Shown here piece by piece: positions 1,866 to 18,731 of a stretch of 32,380 nucleotides of DNA. A program made the position numbers and the translations under genes. The DNA comes from Clostridia bacterium (GTDB lineage Bacteria > Bacillota > DULZ01): positions 1 to 32,380 of the forward strand of contig JAAZDD010000123.1 in assembly GCA_012512955.1 (NCBI GenBank), in the 5' to 3' direction. The notes beneath the pieces were generated by a model. The model searched no databases. It was not told where the DNA came from and saw only the letters and a program-made list of their open reading frames with translations. Each line of letters starts with the position of its first letter. Position 1 is the stretch's first letter.

Positions 1866-1899
1866 AAAAAAAAGGAGGCTCCTCGCCCCCTTTTTATTC
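1866..1899 (-). terminator. Putative terminator downstream of aconitase
   Basis: Minus strand AAAAAGGGGG-cgaggag-CCTCCTTTTTTTT (one G.U pair). Confidence 0.6.
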
Positions 1900-3825
1900 T
1901 TTTTGAGCGTTCCTGACATAGTTCAGCAAGCCACCGGCCAGGACCAGTGCCAATTCCCGCTCTGACAAATGATGCCTCATGGTAATCTCCACATCTTTGG
2001 AGAGATTCTTAACCACCACTTTGTTTCCCTGGCTGATTTGCTCCCGCAATTCCACAAGCTGCAGTTCATCCTCCTGCCCGATTAAATCGTAATCCTTGGC
2101 ATCTTCGAAAGTCAGCGGCAGGATTCCCATGTTGATCAGGTTGGAGCGATGAATGCGGGCAAATGACTTGGCCAGCACCGCCTTGATGCCCAGGTACATT
2201 GGTGCCAAAGCAGCATGTTCCCTGCTGGAACCTTGTCCGTAGTTTTCACCCCCGACGATAAAACCTTTGCCTGCCGCTTTAGCCCTTGCGGCAAAGGAGG
2301 GATCAATGCCGGAAAAGGTATATTCGGAGATGGCCGGAATATTGGAGCGCAAGGGTAGCACTTTGGAGCCGGCAGGAACAATATGGTCAGTAGTAATATT
2401 GTCTCCCACTTTGAGAATGACCGGTGCCTTTATCTCTTGTGGCAATGGTTCATTAAGAGGAAGAGGTTTAATATTGGGCCCCCTGATGATTTCCACTTCC
2501 TCTCCTTCCGGAGCCGGAGGCAGGATCATGCTGTCATCAATGACAAATTTCGTAGGCTGGGGGATCACTTCATATTCACCCAAAGACCGGGGATCAATTA
2601 ACTTTCCCGCCAAGGCTGCCGCTGCCGCCACCTCCGGACCGGCCAGATATACCTGTGCGCTTTTCGTACCGCTTCTCCCTTCAAAGTTGCGGTTAATGGT
2701 CCTGACAGAAACAGCTCCCGTGGCCGGTGCCTGACCCACTCCCACACAAGGGCCGCAAGCACATTCCAAGATCCGTGCCCCAGCCATGATAAAATCACTT
2801 AAAGCACCGTTATCAGCCAGCATTTTCAGCACCTGCCTGGAACCGGGTGCTACCACCAGGCTCACATCAGGATGGATCTTCTTCCCCCTGAGGATAGCAG
2901 CAGCTTGCATCAAATCCTTGTAGGAAGAGTTGGTACAACTGCCGATCACTACTTGGTCCACTTTGATTTCCCCTAATTCCGCAACGGGACGTACGGCATC
3001 GGGACTATGGGGACAGGCCACCATGGGAACCAGCTCATCCAAGCGAATGGTCAACTCCTCCCCATAGACGGCATCAGCATCGGCCGCCAAAGGCACCCAG
3101 TCCTGCTCCCGGCCTTGCGCTTTAAGATATAACCTGGTCATTTCATCACTGGGGAAAATAGAGGATGTAGCGCCCAGTTCAGCACCCATATTGGTAATAG
3201 TCGCTCTTTCCGGAACGGACAAGTACTGCAATCCCTCGCCACAGTACTCAATGATCTTCCCAACACCGCCTTTTACCGTTAAGCGGCGCAATACCTCCAG
3301 GATGATATCCTTCGCCGACACCCAGGGAGCCAGCCTACCCACCAGTTCCACCTTCACAATGGTAGGCATCCGCAAGTAAAAGGGTTCCCCGGCCATGGCG
3401 GTGGCAATATCCAAGCCCCCGGCACCGATGGCCAACATGCCCATCCCACCGGCGGTAGGAGTATGGCTGTCAGCGCCCAGCAAGGTTTCTCCCGGTTTGG
3501 CAAAACGCTCCAGGTGAACCTGGTGGCAAATGCCGTTTCCTGCCTTCGAATAATACAACCCGTACTTGCGGGAAAAAGTCTGCAAAAAGCGGTGATCATC
3601 GGCGTTCTCAAAACCGTTTTGCAGCGTATTATGATCCACATAACTCATGGAAAGTCTGGTTTTAACCCTGTCGATGCCCAGAGCCTCAAACTGCAGGTAA
3701 GCCATCGTCCCCGTGGCATCCTGGGTCAGCGTCTGATCTATCCTGATGGCTATTTCTTCTCCGGGAATCATGGTTCCCTTAACTAAATGTTCACTGATAA
3801 TCTTCTCCGCCAGTGTTTTACCCAT
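1894..3825 (-). CDS. Aconitate hydratase
   Basis: About 645 aa; GADSHTPTAGGMGMLAIGAGG, GSCTNSS, CACGPCVGVG, GGENYGQGSSREHAAL. Start ATG at 3825 (spacing from AGAGGAGAG) favoured over 3831. Confidence 0.93.
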   Translation of the reverse strand: MGKTLAEKIISEHLVKGTMIPGEEIAIRIDQTLTQDATGTMAYLQFEALGIDRVKTRLSMSYVDHNTLQNGFENADDHRFLQTFSRKYGLYYSKAGNGICHQVHLERFAKPGETLLGADSHTPTAGGMGMLAIGAGGLDIATAMAGEPFYLRMPTIVKVELVGRLAPWVSAKDIILEVLRRLTVKGGVGKIIEYCGEGLQYLSVPERATITNMGAELGATSSIFPSDEMTRLYLKAQGREQDWVPLAADADAVYGEELTIRLDELVPMVACPHSPDAVRPVAELGEIKVDQVVIGSCTNSSYKDLMQAAAILRGKKIHPDVSLVVAPGSRQVLKMLADNGALSDFIMAGARILECACGPCVGVGQAPATGAVSVRTINRNFEGRSGTKSAQVYLAGPEVAAAAALAGKLIDPRSLGEYEVIPQPTKFVIDDSMILPPAPEGEEVEIIRGPNIKPLPLNEPLPQEIKAPVILKVGDNITTDHIVPAGSKVLPLRSNIPAISEYTFSGIDPSFAARAKAAGKGFIVGGENYGQGSSREHAALAPMYLGIKAVLAKSFARIHRSNLINMGILPLTFEDAKDYDLIGQEDELQLVELREQISQGNKVVVKNLSKDVEITMRHHLSERELALVLAGGLLNYVRNAQKE

Positions 3826-3911
3826 CTGCATCTCTCCTCTTTTAACCTTCCCTCGGTCATTACTTGTCCATATCAGTATACTAAAAAGTGGCTCAAGATA
3901 AAAGAGGATTG

Positions 3912-8183: not shown

Positions 8184-8729
8184 TTAAAACTCGCGAGGCT
8201 TGCAGATGATCTCTTTAATTTTGGTCTCAAAAAACTGGTGGGAATGGGCCGGTTGAATGACCAGGGCCGTATCGGCACCCCGGCTGGTACCTCCGATAGC
8301 CACAATCTCCTGCCCGTAGGGAATCAAGCCCGCATCCAAAGCCATCCCGGCTATCTCCACGGCCACTTTGATTCCCTGACCCATCATCCGTAAACTGGCG
8401 GCAATGATTTCTGCCGGGTACAAGCCACCGAATTTCATCCGGACGGCCCGATCCAATCCTGCCATTAAATGGGTGGTCGTCAGGCATTTTACCCCTTTTT
8501 TCTCCAACTCCCGCCTGACTTCCTCCGGCATCTCGTTTTCACCGGGATTTCTGAACCCTGAATGATGAGTTACACAGACCACCTGAAAACCTTGGTCCAG
8601 GCAAAGCCGGGCAGTGTTACCGGTGTTGGACGCAACCACCACATACTCAATCCCTAACTCTTTGGCCCTTTTTAAGGCCAGTTCTATCGTCTGTGCCGTA
8701 TTGGCTTCACCTTTTCGTTCCCAGTACAT
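8184..8729 (-). CDS. Stand-alone pyruvate kinase alpha/beta (C-terminal)-like domain protein
   Basis: 181 aa 'NTAQTIELALKRAKELGIEYVVVASNTGNTARL...GLIPYGQEIVAIGGTSRGADTALVIQPAHSHQFFETKIKEIICKP'. Confidence 0.8.
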   Translation of the reverse strand: MYWERKGEANTAQTIELALKRAKELGIEYVVVASNTGNTARLCLDQGFQVVCVTHHSGFRNPGENEMPEEVRRELEKKGVKCLTTTHLMAGLDRAVRMKFGGLYPAEIIAASLRMMGQGIKVAVEIAGMALDAGLIPYGQEIVAIGGTSRGADTALVIQPAHSHQFFETKIKEIICKPREF

Positions 8730-11038: not shown

Positions 11039-11193
11039 TTCTCTCTCTCTCCTTAAAGTTAGTATAATTTTCAGCTGTTACCATTTTAACTTGTTAAAGG
11101 AGTGATAGTCAAGCCCTCCTTTTGAAGCACTACTGAAATCGCAAGAATTGGGGAAGAATCTGAAACAGATGCGAAAGCAAAGGATGGGTTGCC

Positions 11194-12174
11194 ATGAAAA
11201 TGTTGACTTCTCAGGTTCTCGAAGCTTCCCGGGGCTATCCTGAACTGCTGTTGGTAGAAACAAAACTGGAAGCGGAATTAAACAAAAACCGGGGTCCGGT
11301 ACAGGAAATATCCCGCTATTTGCTCAGTGCAGGTGGCAAGCGAATTAGACCTTTATTAGCCTGTATCAGCGGTCGCTTATTTAAAGCCAAGCTTGATGAA
11401 ATCATTACTTGTGCCGCTGCCATTGAATTGATCCATATGGCTTCATTAATCCATGATGATATTGTTGACAATTCGGATATGAGACGGGGCCTCCCGTCAG
11501 TCAATGCCTGCTGGGGGAATCATGCCGCCGTTCTGGTGGGCGATTTTCTCTTTGCCAAAGCTTTTCAACTGTTATCGTTCTCCCGTTTATTACCGGTGTT
11601 GGAAAAAGTAGTAGAGGCCATCAGTGCCATGTGTGACGGAGAAATTGAACAATCCCTCCAAAGAGGTAAAATCAGCCGGTCGGAACAAGATTACCTGGAA
11701 AGAATCAACAAAAAAACCGGCAAACTGATTGCTGCCAGCTGGTCCGTAGGTGCCCTGCTGGAAAGAGGTGACCCGGTAAAAAGATTATCTCTGGAGAACT
11801 ACGGTCAATGTCTGGGTTATGCTTTTCAGATTGTCGATGATGTGCTGGATTTCCGGGGGGACAGTCAAGCTATGGGTAAACCTGTCTGGCTGGATTTGAG
11901 CCAGGGAAATATAACCCTGCCCATCATCAAGTTGTTGAACCATCCGAAATACAGCGCCCGGGTAGAGGAAGTTTTAGCGGAGTGGCCCCTAACCCCCGCC
12001 GGAACCCAGGAAATAATTCAGGCTCTCAATGAATCCGGAGCTCTTGATGCTTCTTTGGAGCAAGCCCGGTCTTTTATTGACAGGGCCAAAGAGCAGTTGA
12101 CCGTTTTCGGGTCTTCTGCGCCGGTTACCGAATTGTCCCTCATAGCGGACTATGTATTGGCACGCATTAATTAA
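11194..12174 (+). CDS. Trans-polyprenyl diphosphate synthase (long-chain, HepT/component II-like)
   Basis: 'GGKRIRPLL', first Asp-rich motif DDIVDNSDMRRG, second motif QIVDDVLDF, GKPVWLDLSQGNITLP; Ala at the fifth position before DDxxD, consistent with a longer-chain product. Confidence 0.9.
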   Translation: MKMLTSQVLEASRGYPELLLVETKLEAELNKNRGPVQEISRYLLSAGGKRIRPLLACISGRLFKAKLDEIITCAAAIELIHMASLIHDDIVDNSDMRRGLPSVNACWGNHAAVLVGDFLFAKAFQLLSFSRLLPVLEKVVEAISAMCDGEIEQSLQRGKISRSEQDYLERINKKTGKLIAASWSVGALLERGDPVKRLSLENYGQCLGYAFQIVDDVLDFRGDSQAMGKPVWLDLSQGNITLPIIKLLNHPKYSARVEEVLAEWPLTPAGTQEIIQALNESGALDASLEQARSFIDRAKEQLTVFGSSAPVTELSLIADYVLARIN

Positions 12175-12217
12175 CAAAGCATTGGACGCCTAAAGACTTA
12201 GACGTCCAATGCTTTGT
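12174..12217. terminator. Large inverted repeat between convergent genes, probable bidirectional terminator
   Basis: 20-bp arms ACAAAGCATTGGACGCCTAA / TTAGACGTCCAATGCTTTGT with one mismatch and a 4-nt loop; no strong U-tract. Confidence 0.6.
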
Positions 12218-12242
12218 AAAAAGCTACTGCGTTTCCGGTTAA

Positions 12243-13574
12243 TTATTTCAGTTTCCCGAGGTCAAAACTTTGATTATTCAATTGACCTCTCAGTTTCATT
12301 GCTTCGTAAATTCGCTGGACTGCCAACTGGATCGCAGCTTCCGTGGGACTAATTTTCTCATCGGTGGCGATTTTGTTGAAGCCCCGGAAGCTGGCCTTAA
12401 TCCGCTCACCGACGAATTCCAACACCTCTTCTTGTTTAGCCGGCTTGGCGCTTAGAGAAGTCGCATACTCCAGATAGGAAGCGACAACACCGCCGCAATT
12501 GGCCACAATATCCGGGAAAATGTAAACTTGTTTTTCTTCCAGAATCGCCATTCCTTCTGGAGTAGCAGGCATATTTGCCGCCGAAACGACAGCTTTGGCA
12601 TTAACTCCGGGGGATGTTTCCTTATTCAATACATGTCCTCCTGCAGCCGGAACCAAAACATCTACCGGCAGCTTGAACAATTCTTCATTGGTGAGAGGCT
12701 GACTGTTGAAACCTTTCACTGTACCATGCTGGCCCACGTACTTAAACAAGGCGGGAACATCGAGTCCCTCGGGATCCTGAACGCCGCCGAAAATATCGAC
12801 AACGCCAATGATCTTGACCCCTTGCTCTGCCAAATACAGACCCGCATAAGAACCTACATTGCCAAAACCCTGAATGGCTACTTTGGCCTGGTTGGCAGGA
12901 ATGCCCAAATAAGCCAGGGTCTCCAGGACGGCAGTAGCTACCCCGTAACCGGTAGCTTCCCTTCGACCGGCCAGCCAGCCGTTAATACCTTCCGGTTTCC
13001 CGGTAACCGAAGCAGGCGCGCCGGTAATGCTGCTGATTACCGCCATTTCCGGTCCCCCGGTACCCATGTCAGGAGCAGGTACATAAGTCAGGCTCCGTAA
13101 CAATTCCCTATGTAAGGTGGCATACTTGGCAATAATGGCTCTCTTGATGATACACTCGAATTCAAGATTGCGCTCTTTAACACCGAAAAGCCGGTAAAGA
13201 GCATCCATGTCTACCCGGATTCCGGATTTGCCCCCGCCGAATTCAATGCCGGCAATGGCTGTTTTTAAGGACATGAGCCGGGCCAATTCACTGGTTTCCC
13301 AGACATCCACGTCATTGGCCATCCGGATGCCACCCTTGTAGGGTCCCCGGGCATTATTATGCAGCACAATACAACCATAAGGGCTGATCACCTTACCGAA
13401 AATTTCCACAGGCAGCCGGAAAATTAACACCTGATCCGGTTGGATCAACTGGGTGATCACTTCGGCAGGATAGCCCAGCCGTTCTCCGGCCCGCTGCACT
13501 AACTCACTGGAAACATTTTCCGGTTCCTTGCTGCGAAGTACTTGTTCAACGCCCATCAATTCTTCATTGCTCAT
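12243..13574 (-). CDS. Glu/Leu/Phe/Val dehydrogenase family protein (glutamate dehydrogenase-like)
   Basis: 'VSPYGCIVLHNNARGPYKGGIRM', 'FGGGKSGI', 'VPAPDMGTGGPEMA', 'GRREATGYGV', 'VAIQGFGNVGSYAG'. Start trimmed to ATG at 13574. Confidence 0.88.
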   Translation of the reverse strand: MSNEELMGVEQVLRSKEPENVSSELVQRAGERLGYPAEVITQLIQPDQVLIFRLPVEIFGKVISPYGCIVLHNNARGPYKGGIRMANDVDVWETSELARLMSLKTAIAGIEFGGGKSGIRVDMDALYRLFGVKERNLEFECIIKRAIIAKYATLHRELLRSLTYVPAPDMGTGGPEMAVISSITGAPASVTGKPEGINGWLAGRREATGYGVATAVLETLAYLGIPANQAKVAIQGFGNVGSYAGLYLAEQGVKIIGVVDIFGGVQDPEGLDVPALFKYVGQHGTVKGFNSQPLTNEELFKLPVDVLVPAAGGHVLNKETSPGVNAKAVVSAANMPATPEGMAILEEKQVYIFPDIVANCGGVVASYLEYATSLSAKPAKQEEVLEFVGERIKASFRGFNKIATDEKISPTEAAIQLAVQRIYEAMKLRGQLNNQSFDLGKLK

Positions 13575-13696
13575 AATGACTGTAAACCCCCTTGCGCCAT
13601 TTCTTGGATTAAAATTCTTGCTTAATATTCTACCGAAAAGGATTAAGCTAAACAATACAAAATTGTGTATACTTGAGGTCAGTCTTTAATTCCGGG

Positions 13697-14758
13697 TTAC
13701 AACTTGCCTTTTTGCCGCAGTTTTTGGCAAACCCAATGAAGGAGCTTTACCCTTGTACCTCCCAACCGGAGCAAGCTAAGACTTGTTTCCCTTTTACTGC
13801 CCTGAAAAGCCTTAGGATCGGACAGGTACATGGCCAGCAAACCTTCCACCACAGAAATATGGAACAAAGGGTTGGCCAGTTTTGCCGCTTGAGTAAAAGC
13901 CTGCTCCAGAAACAAGCATAACCTTTCCTCACATTCTCGAGGATCGCGGTAGTAAAAAACGAAATTCAAATCTCCCCCTGTCCTGTCTTCTTCCTGGTCA
14001 ATAAAGTAGTCCAAGAGAATATGAAGCCCCGTAATCCAGGGGAAATAGGCAGTGCTGATCTGTTGGACTTGATGCTCCTTCAGATCAGGCCGGGCAGCCG
14101 CCGCGGCCAGCATAAACATCCCCAAGGTAGAGCCGGTCGCCGCCCCAAACTCCCAAGGAGACAGATCAGGGGGCTTATGTATCTCAGCCCACGCCAGTAA
14201 TCTTTCCTCCCGAAGGTCTAAAGCCAGGTGTTTTAGGCTCTGCAATTCTGAATACAGCCTGGCAAAACGAAGCACCTCCCCTTTAACCTGTTGATAACCG
14301 GGAAGATGCTGCCGGATGATCTCCCGGCAGTTATGAACCAGAAAAGGCAGATAACCGCCATCCTCTTGATAGGGATAATATTGATAATAATCCCGGCGGG
14401 CTTCCCGATCAGGATCCAGCGCCACCTCCATAGCCAGGTGAAGCTGCCGGAAGGCCTCCTCATTACAGACTCCGGCCCGGTCACACAGATTGTCCAAATA
14501 ATCACTGATGGTCTGCAGGGATACGACAAAGCTGACAAAGGGTTCTTTGTCGACGCCGGGATATAAGGCATAAATACTGCCTCCCTGGGCGTGAAACCGC
14601 TTGCCCCTGATACTGGCCTGTGCCTGGGACTTCAGTTCCTCATCAGGACAGTATTCCAACAGGAGCAAGTATTTCTGCAGTTCTCCATCCACCAAGGGAA
14701 AGACGGTTCCTACAAAGTCCCGGATCAATTTATACTGTTGTTGCCAATCTTTGAACAT
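13697..14758 (-). CDS. ytpB: DUF2600 family protein, tetraprenyl-beta-curcumene synthase (YtpB)-like large-terpene synthase
   Basis: Two Asp-rich motifs DYLDNLCDRAG and DYFIDQEEDRTGGDLNFVFYY; C-terminal ALANPLFHISVVEGLLAMYLSDPKA-type region. Start ATG at 14758 with SD CGGAGGA. Confidence 0.88.
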   Translation of the reverse strand: MFKDWQQQYKLIRDFVGTVFPLVDGELQKYLLLLEYCPDEELKSQAQASIRGKRFHAQGGSIYALYPGVDKEPFVSFVVSLQTISDYLDNLCDRAGVCNEEAFRQLHLAMEVALDPDREARRDYYQYYPYQEDGGYLPFLVHNCREIIRQHLPGYQQVKGEVLRFARLYSELQSLKHLALDLREERLLAWAEIHKPPDLSPWEFGAATGSTLGMFMLAAAAARPDLKEHQVQQISTAYFPWITGLHILLDYFIDQEEDRTGGDLNFVFYYRDPRECEERLCLFLEQAFTQAAKLANPLFHISVVEGLLAMYLSDPKAFQGSKRETSLSLLRLGGTRVKLLHWVCQKLRQKGKL

Positions 14759-14832
14759 ACCCGTCCTCCGTTTAGTCAGGGCTTGACTAATATTGTTACC
14801 CTGATGGCAAAAGTTAAACAAAAGGCCGCGCC

Positions 14833-15951
14833 CTACACCCTTACCCGGCGACCTTCCCTGTCCACTTGGTAACTCATTCCCCGCCAGGTCAAGACACCGG
14901 TACGTAAAGTCTGCAGATAAACATAAAGGAATATACCGTCCATTACCGGTAACAAAAGTGTTTCAATACCGGAGGTACCTGCCCGGCGGGAAATCAAAAA
15001 AGCCGTCAACATTTTCCCGAACAGGTGAACGGTTCCTGCCCAGAACAATATGGGCTTCATCAAAACAAGACCCAATAAGATCAAAGGAAAATAATAATAG
15101 GCTACAAACAAATAAGGTACTTCCAAGGCCAGGTGTAACATTTTCCGGTAGATAATGGCTCCCCTGGCCAACAGGCTAATGGCATCTTCTTTCGTCTTGG
15201 CCCCTACCGGCGAGTAAATTTCCGGTCCGATGGCCAACTGATAACCTGCTTCTTTGACCAGAAGGCCCAGTTTCACATCTTCAACCAAATAATCACCGAT
15301 GGCCTCCATTCCGCCAATTTCCTCAATGACCTGTTTTTTGATAGCGATGGTGCCTCCGGCTACTCCTAACTTGAATACGGTGGCATAAGGAAGCCACTGG
15401 GCAAGAATGGTGGCATTGAGCTGGAGCATGTAAATTAATCCCCAGAATCCCCTGGCTCCCACATGGATGGGCAGGGCAGACACCAAGCCAAGTTTGGGAT
15501 CATTCAGTTGAGAAGCAATCCGGGCGATGAAATCCGGCTGCACCCGCATATCGGCATCGCTCAAAATCAAACAGTCATATTTTGCCATTTGAATCCCATA
15601 ATGCAGATTGCTTGATTTGCCGGTCATGGGAGCTTTGACCGGATTGACAGTAACCCGGATTTCAACCTGGGGATATTCCTCTTGTAACCTCTTGACCAAA
15701 GGCAGAGCGGGGTCTTCCGGATCCTGGAAGGAAAAAATCAATTCATAAGGCACTGACAGCTCTTGCTTGCAAAAGGAGGCAAAGTTTTCATAAGCGCCGT
15801 CATCCAAACCTTTTACCGGCTTGATGACCGAAATACCCCGGGGCTCCCGGCCCTTTTTGATGGAACGGCAACGGTTAAGACCGTAAGCAAAAGCAAAATA
15901 ATGGGCAAAAATAAAGCTTCCCAATACAAGTCCCAAAATAACAAACATCAT
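14833..15951 (-). CDS. Membrane glycosyltransferase, HpnI / ceramide glucosyltransferase (GT21)-like
   Basis: 'ISVIKPVKGLDDGAYENFASFCKQ', 'FQDPEDPA', 'LILSDADMRV', 'LVSALPIH', 'LVEDVKLG', C-terminal TM helices. SD AAGGGAGGG before the ATGATG start. Confidence 0.85.
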   Translation of the reverse strand: MMFVILGLVLGSFIFAHYFAFAYGLNRCRSIKKGREPRGISVIKPVKGLDDGAYENFASFCKQELSVPYELIFSFQDPEDPALPLVKRLQEEYPQVEIRVTVNPVKAPMTGKSSNLHYGIQMAKYDCLILSDADMRVQPDFIARIASQLNDPKLGLVSALPIHVGARGFWGLIYMLQLNATILAQWLPYATVFKLGVAGGTIAIKKQVIEEIGGMEAIGDYLVEDVKLGLLVKEAGYQLAIGPEIYSPVGAKTKEDAISLLARGAIIYRKMLHLALEVPYLFVAYYYFPLILLGLVLMKPILFWAGTVHLFGKMLTAFLISRRAGTSGIETLLLPVMDGIFLYVYLQTLRTGVLTWRGMSYQVDREGRRVRV

Positions 15952-16079
15952 TACCCTCCCTTTTTTGGAAAATTGCACTTATTTTGTCATTACCAGAAGG
16001 AATTCTACTTTGCCGGGCGAATACCTTTTTATAAATTGAATTTAGATTCATTTCTTTGTTTAATGAAGGAGGGATGCTG

Positions 16080-16967
16080 ATGCTTAAGACTTGGTTTTTG
16101 GCGGGGCGGCCATGGTCCCTTACGGCTGCGGCCATTCCGGTCACTTTGGGCTCCGCCATCGCCTGGAATCAAGGTTATTTCCACCCTGGCTTGTTTTTAC
16201 TATCCTTGATTGGAGGTGCAGCCATCCAGTTAGGCACCAATTATACCAATACCTACGGGGATTACATTTCCGGAGTGGATACCATTGAATCAAACCAGAC
16301 TTCCCCCCAATTGGTGCAAGGTATCCTGCAACCGGCCCACATGCTGAGAGTCGGCCTGGGTGCTTTCGCTTTTGCTTCAGCCATCGGTCTTTACCTGGTC
16401 TACCTGCGAGGCTGGCCTCTACTGCTCATCGGAGTGCTGGGTATTCTCGGCGGCTATGGCTATACCTTGGGAATCGCTTATAAATACCGGGGATTGGGCA
16501 CCCCTTTGGTTTTCTTTCTCATGGGCCCCATGATGGCTTGGGCTGCTTATTTTGTTCAAACGGGCTTCAGCAGTTGGGTCCCGGTACTGGCTTCTGTACC
16601 TATTGGTTTTTTGATTTCCGGCCTGTTACACGCCAATGACTTCAGGGACATACCCCATGACCGGGAAGCCGGCATCATTACTTTAGGTACCATCCTCGGC
16701 TTTGATCGGAGCCTGCCCTTCTATTATTTTCTCAACCTGGGCGCATATCTTTCCCTGGTTCTGTTGGTGATAACCGGTGTGCTGCCCCTGGTGGGGTTAA
16801 TCCCCCTCCTGTTGGTACCCCGTTTCTGGCAGTTGATGAAAGACGCCCGGGCAGGCTGGTTGGGTGACAAGGAGAAACTGATTTGGCTGGAGAAAAATCA
16901 TGCCCGGCTTCACTTCCAGTTTGGGATCCTATTTATCGGCAGCCTGCTGATTCACTTAATCTATTGA
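16080..16967 (+). CDS. UbiA-superfamily prenyltransferase, MenA-like
   Basis: 'LAGRPWSLTAAAIPVTLGSA', NYTNTYGDYISGVD, HANDFRDIPHDREAGIITLGTILG; multiple TM helices. SD AAGGAGGG and start ATG at 16080. Confidence 0.88.
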   Translation: MLKTWFLAGRPWSLTAAAIPVTLGSAIAWNQGYFHPGLFLLSLIGGAAIQLGTNYTNTYGDYISGVDTIESNQTSPQLVQGILQPAHMLRVGLGAFAFASAIGLYLVYLRGWPLLLIGVLGILGGYGYTLGIAYKYRGLGTPLVFFLMGPMMAWAAYFVQTGFSSWVPVLASVPIGFLISGLLHANDFRDIPHDREAGIITLGTILGFDRSLPFYYFLNLGAYLSLVLLVITGVLPLVGLIPLLLVPRFWQLMKDARAGWLGDKEKLIWLEKNHARLHFQFGILFIGSLLIHLIY

Positions 16968-16978
16968 GGGAGGATTTT

Positions 16979-17605
16979 ATGGCTTACCGCAATATAGGTA
17001 CATATCAAGTAATCTTTACCCTTTGCCTGGCGGCAGTTTTCTGGTACTTGATCTTTGGCGTTCAAATGGCGAATTTTTGGCTTTCCATGGCTGTGGCTGC
17101 TACTGTACTGGCAAGTCTCTCCGTTTTGTTTCAGGGTTTGCCTTTCACCGGTAAAGATCTGAATGCCAGGGCAATTATTGCAGGTCTGGTTTCGGCTGCA
17201 ATCCTCTACCTGTTGTTCTGGCTGGGCAACACTGTCTCCCAGTGGATTTTTCCCTTTGCCCGGGGACAGGTAGCTTCCATTTATGAGATTCGCACCCAGG
17301 GCCAAGCCATGGTCATTGCCCTGGTACTCCTTTTCATTACCAGTCCGGCGGAGGAAATCTTTTGGCGAGGCTTTATCCAAAAATGGGCCATGGAAAAATA
17401 CGGCGATCTCCGCGGCTGGCTTCTGGGGTCCTGCATCTATGCAGGAGTTCATCTTGCCTCCGGTAATTTCATGCTGGTAATGGCGGCACTGGTAGCTGGT
17501 TTGTTCTGGGGCTATCTCTACAAGTGGGAAGGGAATCTGGTGTCCTGTATCATTTCCCATTGTATTTGGACGGTAGGCATTTTTCTCCTGATTCCCGTGA
17601 TGTAA
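16979..17605 (+). CDS. CPBP family intramembrane metalloprotease (Abi/CAAX protease-like)
   Basis: EEIFWRGFI, IYAGVHLASGN and SHCIWTVGIF motifs in a multi-TM protein; SD GGGAGG. Confidence 0.88.
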   Translation: MAYRNIGTYQVIFTLCLAAVFWYLIFGVQMANFWLSMAVAATVLASLSVLFQGLPFTGKDLNARAIIAGLVSAAILYLLFWLGNTVSQWIFPFARGQVASIYEIRTQGQAMVIALVLLFITSPAEEIFWRGFIQKWAMEKYGDLRGWLLGSCIYAGVHLASGNFMLVMAALVAGLFWGYLYKWEGNLVSCIISHCIWTVGIFLLIPVM

Positions 17606-17618
17606 CCGGCTACAAGGT

Positions 17619-18731
17619 TTACTCCCCGGGGACATGATTATGCAAAAACTGAATAATATCTTTTGCCTTTGGCGGACACCCGGGCAGGAAGGTCTCAAAT
17701 CCGGCTGTACAGGATCCGATGCCTATTCCCGTGCCCTGTTGCTTTTTGAAGCCTTGTCCGATGGCAATACCCTTGGGAAGGTTCTCCAGCCTTCCCTCTT
17801 TTTTCAGCCGCATTAAAGCATAAACAAGACTGCCGAAGCAGGGAGAACAAGCATTGTCATCATTAATCCAATGACGCAGGTAATCTACCTCCATTCCCGC
17901 TTCGATGGGTCCTATGGTAGTCTCTTTATCGCCAGGATTAAGCTCCACCGGCACATCTTCCGACAGCTGATCCGACCCCACCCCCAATTGAGCCGCCAGC
18001 CCGATGTAGGGAATGTCCTTCCCTTCATAACCCAGTAATTCCGCCACATAGGCATCAATAAGGACCGGATCCCCACCGGCCAACATCAGTCCCATTCTCA
18101 CCGGGTTTCCCCCTTCTTCGTGAGTCAAATCCCCAATCAGACCGTCTACAATGGTTAGATGGGGACGCAAAGCTTTGCTCAGGCAGGCAATGGGCCGGTG
18201 CAGACCCAGGCGGTGAAATCGTCTTTTTTCCTGATCAGGAATGCAGCCTTTAAGATTCTTAAGAGCGCATGTTATCTTGGTTTGGCAGTGCGCCTTTAAC
18301 ACCGGCAGATTGATCAGATAATCTACCCGTAAAGGTTCCCGGCAAACCTTTACCGGCAATCCGTCTACCTCTATTTCTTCATAAGCGTCTTCCTTGAGAT
18401 CAATCAAAGGAACGTCAAATTCCTGACTCAGTGCCTCATAGCCGCAGAACCGGAAAGCATCGGCCGTCTGTTCGCCCACCCAGGAACTCTCCATAATGGC
18501 GATCTTGGTAAAACCATGTTCCTTCAGATAACGCAGAACCCCGCGCACCAGTTCCGGGGAAGTGGTGGCTCCCCAGTGGGCAGGTTGGGCCACTACCAAA
18601 TTGGGTTTCAGGCCAATGTAAGGGTCTTCTTTCCCTATCCTCCGTATTTCCTGAGCAATGTGCATAGCCTCCATCAGGCTTATGGCCATTCTTTCGGCGT
18701 GATGGCCGTAAATAACCGTAACCTCACCCAT
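17619..18731 (-). CDS. DUF362 domain-containing protein
   Basis: 'LKPNLVVAQPAHWGATTSPELVRGVLRYLKEHGFTKIAIMESSW', 'LPVLKAHCQTKITCALKNLKGCIPDQEKRRFHRLGLHRPIACLSKALRPHLTIVDGL'. Confidence 0.88.
   Translation of the reverse strand: MGEVTVIYGHHAERMAISLMEAMHIAQEIRRIGKEDPYIGLKPNLVVAQPAHWGATTSPELVRGVLRYLKEHGFTKIAIMESSWVGEQTADAFRFCGYEALSQEFDVPLIDLKEDAYEEIEVDGLPVKVCREPLRVDYLINLPVLKAHCQTKITCALKNLKGCIPDQEKRRFHRLGLHRPIACLSKALRPHLTIVDGLIGDLTHEEGGNPVRMGLMLAGGDPVLIDAYVAELLGYEGKDIPYIGLAAQLGVGSDQLSEDVPVELNPGDKETTIGPIEAGMEVDYLRHWINDDNACSPCFGSLVYALMRLKKEGRLENLPKGIAIGQGFKKQQGTGIGIGSCTAGFETFLPGCPPKAKDIIQFLHNHVPGE

Follow-up and report, generated by a model that had tools for sequence, protein, structure and literature searches.

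A conserved gene pair of a prenyl diphosphate synthase and a YtpB-family enzyme in spore-forming Clostridia, and its predicted monocyclic terpene

Genes related to isoprenoid metabolism lie close together in a clostridial genome, which raises the question of which of them belong to one pathway and what that pathway would make. The window, i.e. the whole stretch of 32,380 nucleotides analysed here, is contig C62 of a draft genome of 2.04 Mb and 81% completeness. Its family, order and class are represented by three genomes (G000-G002), the two relatives of the window genome being 93% and 97% complete. An initial annotation had recognized genes for a trans-polyprenyl diphosphate synthase (IDS), a YtpB-type DUF2600 protein, a glycosyltransferase (GT), a UbiA prenyltransferase and a CPBP protein, and had proposed a branch point with menaquinone whose terpene would be glycosylated, possibly into a spore lipid.

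The locus and its terpene synthase

All five genes were found again by open reading frame listing and family scans (Table 1). The glutamate-dehydrogenase-like gene that separates the IDS from the DUF2600 gene was missing from the title of the initial annotation. It is also encountered in locus L004 and does not lie between the pair in L084 or most other loci; it is a putative bystander, inserted at the genus level.

Table 1. Features of the locus, with positions in the window
Feature	Position	Strand	Matches and remarks
Promoter-like block upstream of IDS, CACTACTGAAAT...GGGGAAGAATCT	11127-11161	+	Resembles a block in L004 and L084; tentative
IDS (trans-polyprenyl diphosphate synthase)	11194-12174	+	PF00348, 224 bits; core member of the unit
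Glu/Leu/Phe/Val dehydrogenase-like (glutamate-dehydrogenase-like) gene	12243-13655	-	PF00208/PF02812; between IDS and DUF2600
DUF2600/YtpB-family terpene synthase, likely extent	13697-14758	-	PF10776, 418 bits; core member of the unit
GT21/HpnI-like glycosyltransferase	14833-15978	-	GT21, 106 bits; HpnI model, 200 bits
UbiA prenyltransferase, second MenA-like paralogue	16074-16967	+	PF01040, 105 bits
CPBP (Rce1-like) membrane protein	about 16979-17605	+	PF02517, 61 bits
DUF362 protein	17619-18731	-	Adjoins GT in relative G001

The DUF2600 protein covers the entire PF10776 profile (1-328 of 328), far above its cut-off of 25 bits. Its longest frame spans 13697-14821 on the minus strand, the likelier start being the ATG at 14758 behind a ribosome-binding site (cggagga). 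Over 326 residues it is homologous (E=1.5e-70) to the tetraprenyl-beta-curcumene synthase of PDB 5yo8, the Bacillus alcalophilus large-terpene synthase BalTS. The two aspartate-rich motifs of BalTS, DYLDNLxD and DY(F,L,W)IDxxED (review PMC7839719), both have a counterpart in the window protein: DYLDNLCD for the first, which 83 of its 85 relatives match exactly, and DYFIDQEED for the second. Unlike BalTS, the window enzyme is of clostridial lineage and is known here from its sequence. It is a YtpB-family protein resembling tetraprenyl-beta-curcumene synthase, with a predicted activity of cyclizing a linear C35 diphosphate.

A conserved pair with its own class of prenyl synthase

DUF2600 is present in 125 genomes of an even draw of 349 from the phylum, and in all three genomes of the window's order and class. 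Gene neighbourhoods were compared at 56 DUF2600 loci from about 55 families, and a second set of 80 loci was retrieved from the genome contig collection. An IDS lies within about 3 kb of DUF2600 at 39 of the 56 loci, and within 3 kb at 23 of 33 loci of the contig collection. By chance a nearby IDS would be expected at ~1% of loci (about three IDS genes in 2.8 Mb), that is, at about one locus or fewer. The remaining 17 of the 56 loci show no neighbouring IDS, one of them being at a contig edge. Adjacent pairs are convergent (40) or tandem (16) and never divergent, and 10 of the 40 convergent pairs overlap by 4 bases. No third gene common to many families was found beside the pair in the neighbourhood comparison. 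In the contig collection, Bacilli loci display the known ytpA-ytpB order and Clostridia loci mostly an IDS adjoining DUF2600. Cultured bacteria with the pair include Syntrophomonas wolfei (L037) and Dethiobacter (L018). The functional pairing of IDS and YtpB-type synthase in the initial annotation is thus borne out by a linkage kept over dozens of families; the linkage of GT and UbiA to them is not conserved. It is well supported that IDS and DUF2600 constitute a genuine two-gene unit kept by many spore-forming Clostridia.

Each of the three family genomes harbours three full-length IDS genes. One is HepT-like (378 bits in G001) and neighbours succinate dehydrogenase-type genes, menG also being close by in G001; another is of the FPP-synthase type, beside xseA; the third is linked to DUF2600. 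A tree of 99 IDSs resolves the DUF2600-linked class, which includes the window IDS, the quinone-type (HepT-like) class and the IspA-type class with hardly any mixing. When long-branch and near-duplicate rows are excluded (70 rows), the linked IDSs fall on one side of a single branch with a support of 97/86; with few or no rows removed, so that long branches stay in, the SH-aLRT support for this single group is only 57-81. Because quinone and short-chain precursors come from the two other paralogues, the linked IDS is predicted to be dedicated to the DUF2600 route.

The sequence of the linked IDS points to a long product rather than to an exact chain length. The window IDS carries AS ahead of LIHDD, which resembles the long-chain quinone group (mostly AS or AT), whereas IspA-type proteins carry YS or YT at this position; small residues before LIHDD-type motifs accompany long prenyl products. 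The best NCBIfam model is HepT, at 247 bits and under the cut-off of 456. No HepS gene lies beside the linked IDS at the locus, and L185, a candidate for a small subunit encoded close to the quinone genes, has only weak matches to IDS models.

The HepT match and the long-chain motif common to the quinone group would also suit an enzyme supplying mainly quinones or other polyprenyl compounds, placed beside DUF2600 only by virtue of a shared substrate; B. subtilis HepST serves MenA, YtpB and PcrB alike. We regard this as unlikely, since the linked IDSs group apart in the tree and a separate quinone-type IDS is encoded in the same genome; in some genomes the linked IDS is the sole non-IspA one (of the 20 paired genomes examined, 8 carry just one IDS gene besides the linked one, and it is IspA-type by tree in 6 of these 8).

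The branch point with menaquinone finds no support because the window genome carries all three IDS types, the HepT-like one beside succinate dehydrogenase-type genes, and encodes MenA elsewhere. The window UbiA belongs to the same superfamily as MenA (1,4-dihydroxy-2-naphthoate polyprenyltransferase) and is MenA-like, but it stays under the TIGR00751 cut-off (97.1 against 102.15), whereas another UbiA of the genome, L182, passes the MenA cut-offs (370 against 264; 249.9 against 102.15 for TIGR00751) and is the predicted bona fide MenA. Futalosine menaquinone genes (PF02621) were found in none of the three family genomes.

The second cyclase, sporulation and the predicted product

The initial annotation saw no squalene-hopene-type cyclase (SHC, SqhC in B. 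subtilis) at the locus, and the absence extends to the genomes: PF13243 is found neither in the window genome (81% complete) nor in its two relatives (93% and 97%). Full-length matches occur in only 6 of the 349 phylum genomes; weak matches in about 80 genomes were discarded as partial. Five of the six full-length carriers have DUF2600, and therefore 120 of the 125 DUF2600 genomes are devoid of the B. subtilis partner SqhC; none of the six is an IDS-paired genome. A pathway ending with a monocyclic product would not be unreasonable, since in crust-defective B. subtilis spores hydrophobicity is due to tetraprenyl curcumene itself and not to sporulene (PMC11708026).

The clostridial unit and the B. 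subtilis HepS/HepT-YtpB-SqhC pathway to sporulene and baciterpenol have in common a DUF2600 enzyme with both motifs, a supplier of long-chain trans-prenyl diphosphate and spore-forming hosts. They differ in the prenyl synthase, which in the clostridial unit is a distinct paralogue adjoining DUF2600 and has no HepS subunit next to it, and in that the unit has neither SqhC/SHC nor a ytpA neighbour. The unit is a variant of this pathway that has a prenyl synthase of its own and lacks the final cyclase. In the proposed route, the linked IDS would extend an allylic diphosphate with IPP into a long all-trans chain of about C30-C40 (C35 if like B. subtilis). The DUF2600 enzyme would ionize this chain and close one ring, which would give a monocyclic, tetraprenyl-beta-curcumene-like hydrocarbon. 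Because there is no SHC, this hydrocarbon would probably be final, or else be altered by an enzyme encoded elsewhere. Expression would probably be tied to sporulation and the product destined for the spore or its membranes. We consider it likely that the locus encodes such a route: two enzymes dedicated to a long-chain terpene with a single ring, probably a lipid of the spore and not glycosylated.

The spore lipid, already raised as a possibility by the initial annotation, is made plausible by two observations. SpoIVA is present in 120 of the 125 DUF2600-positive against 173 of the 224 DUF2600-negative genomes (odds ratio 7, p=1e-6, uncorrected for descent), an association confounded by descent because most of the phylum is spore-forming. 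In addition, sigma-F/G-like (forespore) promoters are enriched upstream of linked IDSs: of 46 non-redundant loci, 18 have one. The controls gave 48 hits for 540 other genes, 4 for the opposite strand of the 46 loci and a mean of 4.1 (maximum 9) for shuffles; with re-chosen start codons the count is still 18/47 against 4/47. Six promoter patterns were tried, taken from the B. subtilis consensus. The combined sigma-F/G p of 2e-7 is optimistic because the test was chosen after the first results, and more weight should be given to the opposite-strand and shuffle controls. Before DUF2600 the sporulation-promoter signal is not enriched (8/71, the opposite strand giving 5/71); neither gene is preceded by a clear excess of sigma-E, sigma-K or sigma-A patterns, and a de novo search for 5- and 6-mers before the IDS left nothing after multiple testing. 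The window's own IDS misses the formal sigma-F/G pattern and carries a resembling block conserved in its family. Given the lack of enrichment before DUF2600 and this block of the window IDS, we take forespore expression of the linked IDS as a lead.

The ytpB gene of B. subtilis is controlled by sigma-M and sigma-E (PMC11708026), which stand for stress and the mother cell and not for the forespore. A broader proposal is that many endospore-forming Clostridia use a dedicated two-enzyme pathway, its prenyl synthase being activated in the forespore, to make a monocyclic long-chain terpene that is not cyclized further; this spore lipid would be distinct from sporulenes and would arise in another compartment than in B. 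subtilis. The proposal is tentative, and we rate it as less likely than not. The pair might instead act in envelope stress, by managing polyprenyl diphosphate pools or the properties of membranes during growth, given that the bacitracin sensitivity associated with B. subtilis ytpB is due to heptaprenyl-PP accumulation and that ytpAB are under sigma-M (PMC8144471). This role seems improbable to us: the substrate would be produced by a dedicated IDS just to be consumed again, and sigma-F/G-like promoters lie upstream of the IDS.

Neighbouring genes and significance of the pair

The GT shares the GT21 family with HpnI, the bacteriohopanetetrol glucosamine glycosyltransferase, whose model TIGR03472 is its best NCBIfam match at 200.4 bits, all the same under the cut-off of 310. 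It differs from HpnI in that the (Q/R)xxRW motif was not found in it and in that the window genome has no SHC and therefore no hopanoid acceptor for an HpnI-like enzyme. Orthologues (E below 1e-30) occur in only 7 of the 349 genomes, against 125 with DUF2600, and are absent from 120 of these 125. The seven comprise the three of the window's family, G021 and G333, where DUF2600 is absent, G113, where the GT (62% identical) lies 880 kb from DUF2600, and G128, where the two genes are on different contigs. Linkage is seen only in the three-genome family, within about 5 kb in each member. The two genes are direct neighbours on one strand in the window, where about 75 bp separate the GT from the DUF2600 start downstream of it; they are separated by a Hydrolase_2 (SleB-like) gene in L004 and by a PHP gene and two inositol-phosphate genes in L084, and the GT directly follows DUF362 in G001. 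The GT is thus probably outside the IDS-DUF2600 unit and linked to it at the family level only. As for UbiA, a CPBP gene follows it in all three family genomes (L180, L181). In the window this pair is flanked by DUF362 and GT, in G002 it adjoins DUF362, and in G001 it is located elsewhere, beside purine genes; UbiA is probably no part of the unit either. GT and UbiA therefore occur independently of it; together with CPBP and the glutamate-dehydrogenase-like gene, they look like passengers, lineage-specific neighbours of the unit.

A glycolipid locus, in which the GT modifies the terpene of IDS and DUF2600, UbiA and CPBP take part and the IDS also feeds menaquinone, is very unlikely: the closeness of the GT in the family speaks for it, whereas the rarity and dispersal of the GT, the separate HepT-like IDS and MenA, the distant UbiA-CPBP pair of G001 and a YtpB product that, being a hydrocarbon, lacks a hydroxyl group for glycosylation in the absence of some additional step, speak against it.

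Terpenes of Clostridia and of clostridial spores are little described. In a literature search the sole paper naming DUF2600 was a domain-to-EC data-mining study, and no paper combined 'curcumene synthase' and 'Clostridia'. If the dedicated route to a monocyclic spore terpene is correct, the third prenyl synthase class of Clostridia would gain a function and a YtpB-type lipid would be present, without SqhC, in the spores of many anaerobes. A tetraprenyl-beta-curcumene feature has been described in groundwater (PMC10033605); groundwater compounds taken as Bacillus intermediates may then be end products of anaerobes.

Arrangement and number of IDS-DUF2600 pairs

Many loci conserve a tail-to-tail order of the polyprenyl diphosphate synthase (IDS) and DUF2600 genes, which is unusual for pathway genes and could mean antisense coupling; in ten convergent pairs the two genes share exactly 4 bases at their stop codons. 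Genome G235 holds two separate convergent pairs (L134, L135), each lying a few kb from a homologue of the same window gene (table).

Neighbouring genes

The stand-alone PF02887 gene, found about 5 kb from DUF2600 in the window's family, directly precedes DUF2600 in three other genomes (L113, L133, L157). In G001, a relative of the window genome, the genes between the glycosyltransferase and DUF2600 include a fusion and an inositol-phosphate synthase (table); the fusion belongs to the bifunctional inositol-phosphate type, with a score of 272 bits out of 580. Relatives of Syntrophomonas carry a conserved tandem series of GT4, MurT-like and GatD-like genes, labelled by sequence appearance, with IDS and DUF2600 as its last members.

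Features and loci (L, DUF2600 neighbourhoods)
Feature	Position or loci
Window gene with homologues in G235	window 1894-3831
Stand-alone pyruvate-kinase C-terminal-domain protein (PF02887)	window 8184-8729
Fused NTP-transferase/CDP-alcohol phosphatidyltransferase and inositol-phosphate synthase, G001	L084:6587-9027
Syntrophomonas-type series	L021, L022, L025, L027, L032, L033, L037, L117, L159
Cyanobacterial DUF2600, then flavoprotein	L030, L041, L042, L046, L049, L055, L056, L060

DUF2600 variation and a putative reduced product

In family f9 (G010, G056, G094, G183; L114), DUF2600 has a predicted insert of some 60-90 residues close to the first catalytic motif, since the PF10776 profile matches in two halves (1-95 and about 99-328) within a single open frame.

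In Nostocales and related cyanobacteria, a geranylgeranyl-reductase-like flavoprotein gene follows DUF2600 in the same orientation, its product scoring 149-152 bits against TIGR02032, under the cut-off of 158.8. This co-oriented neighbour suggests that the terpene product of the cyanobacterial loci would be reduced.
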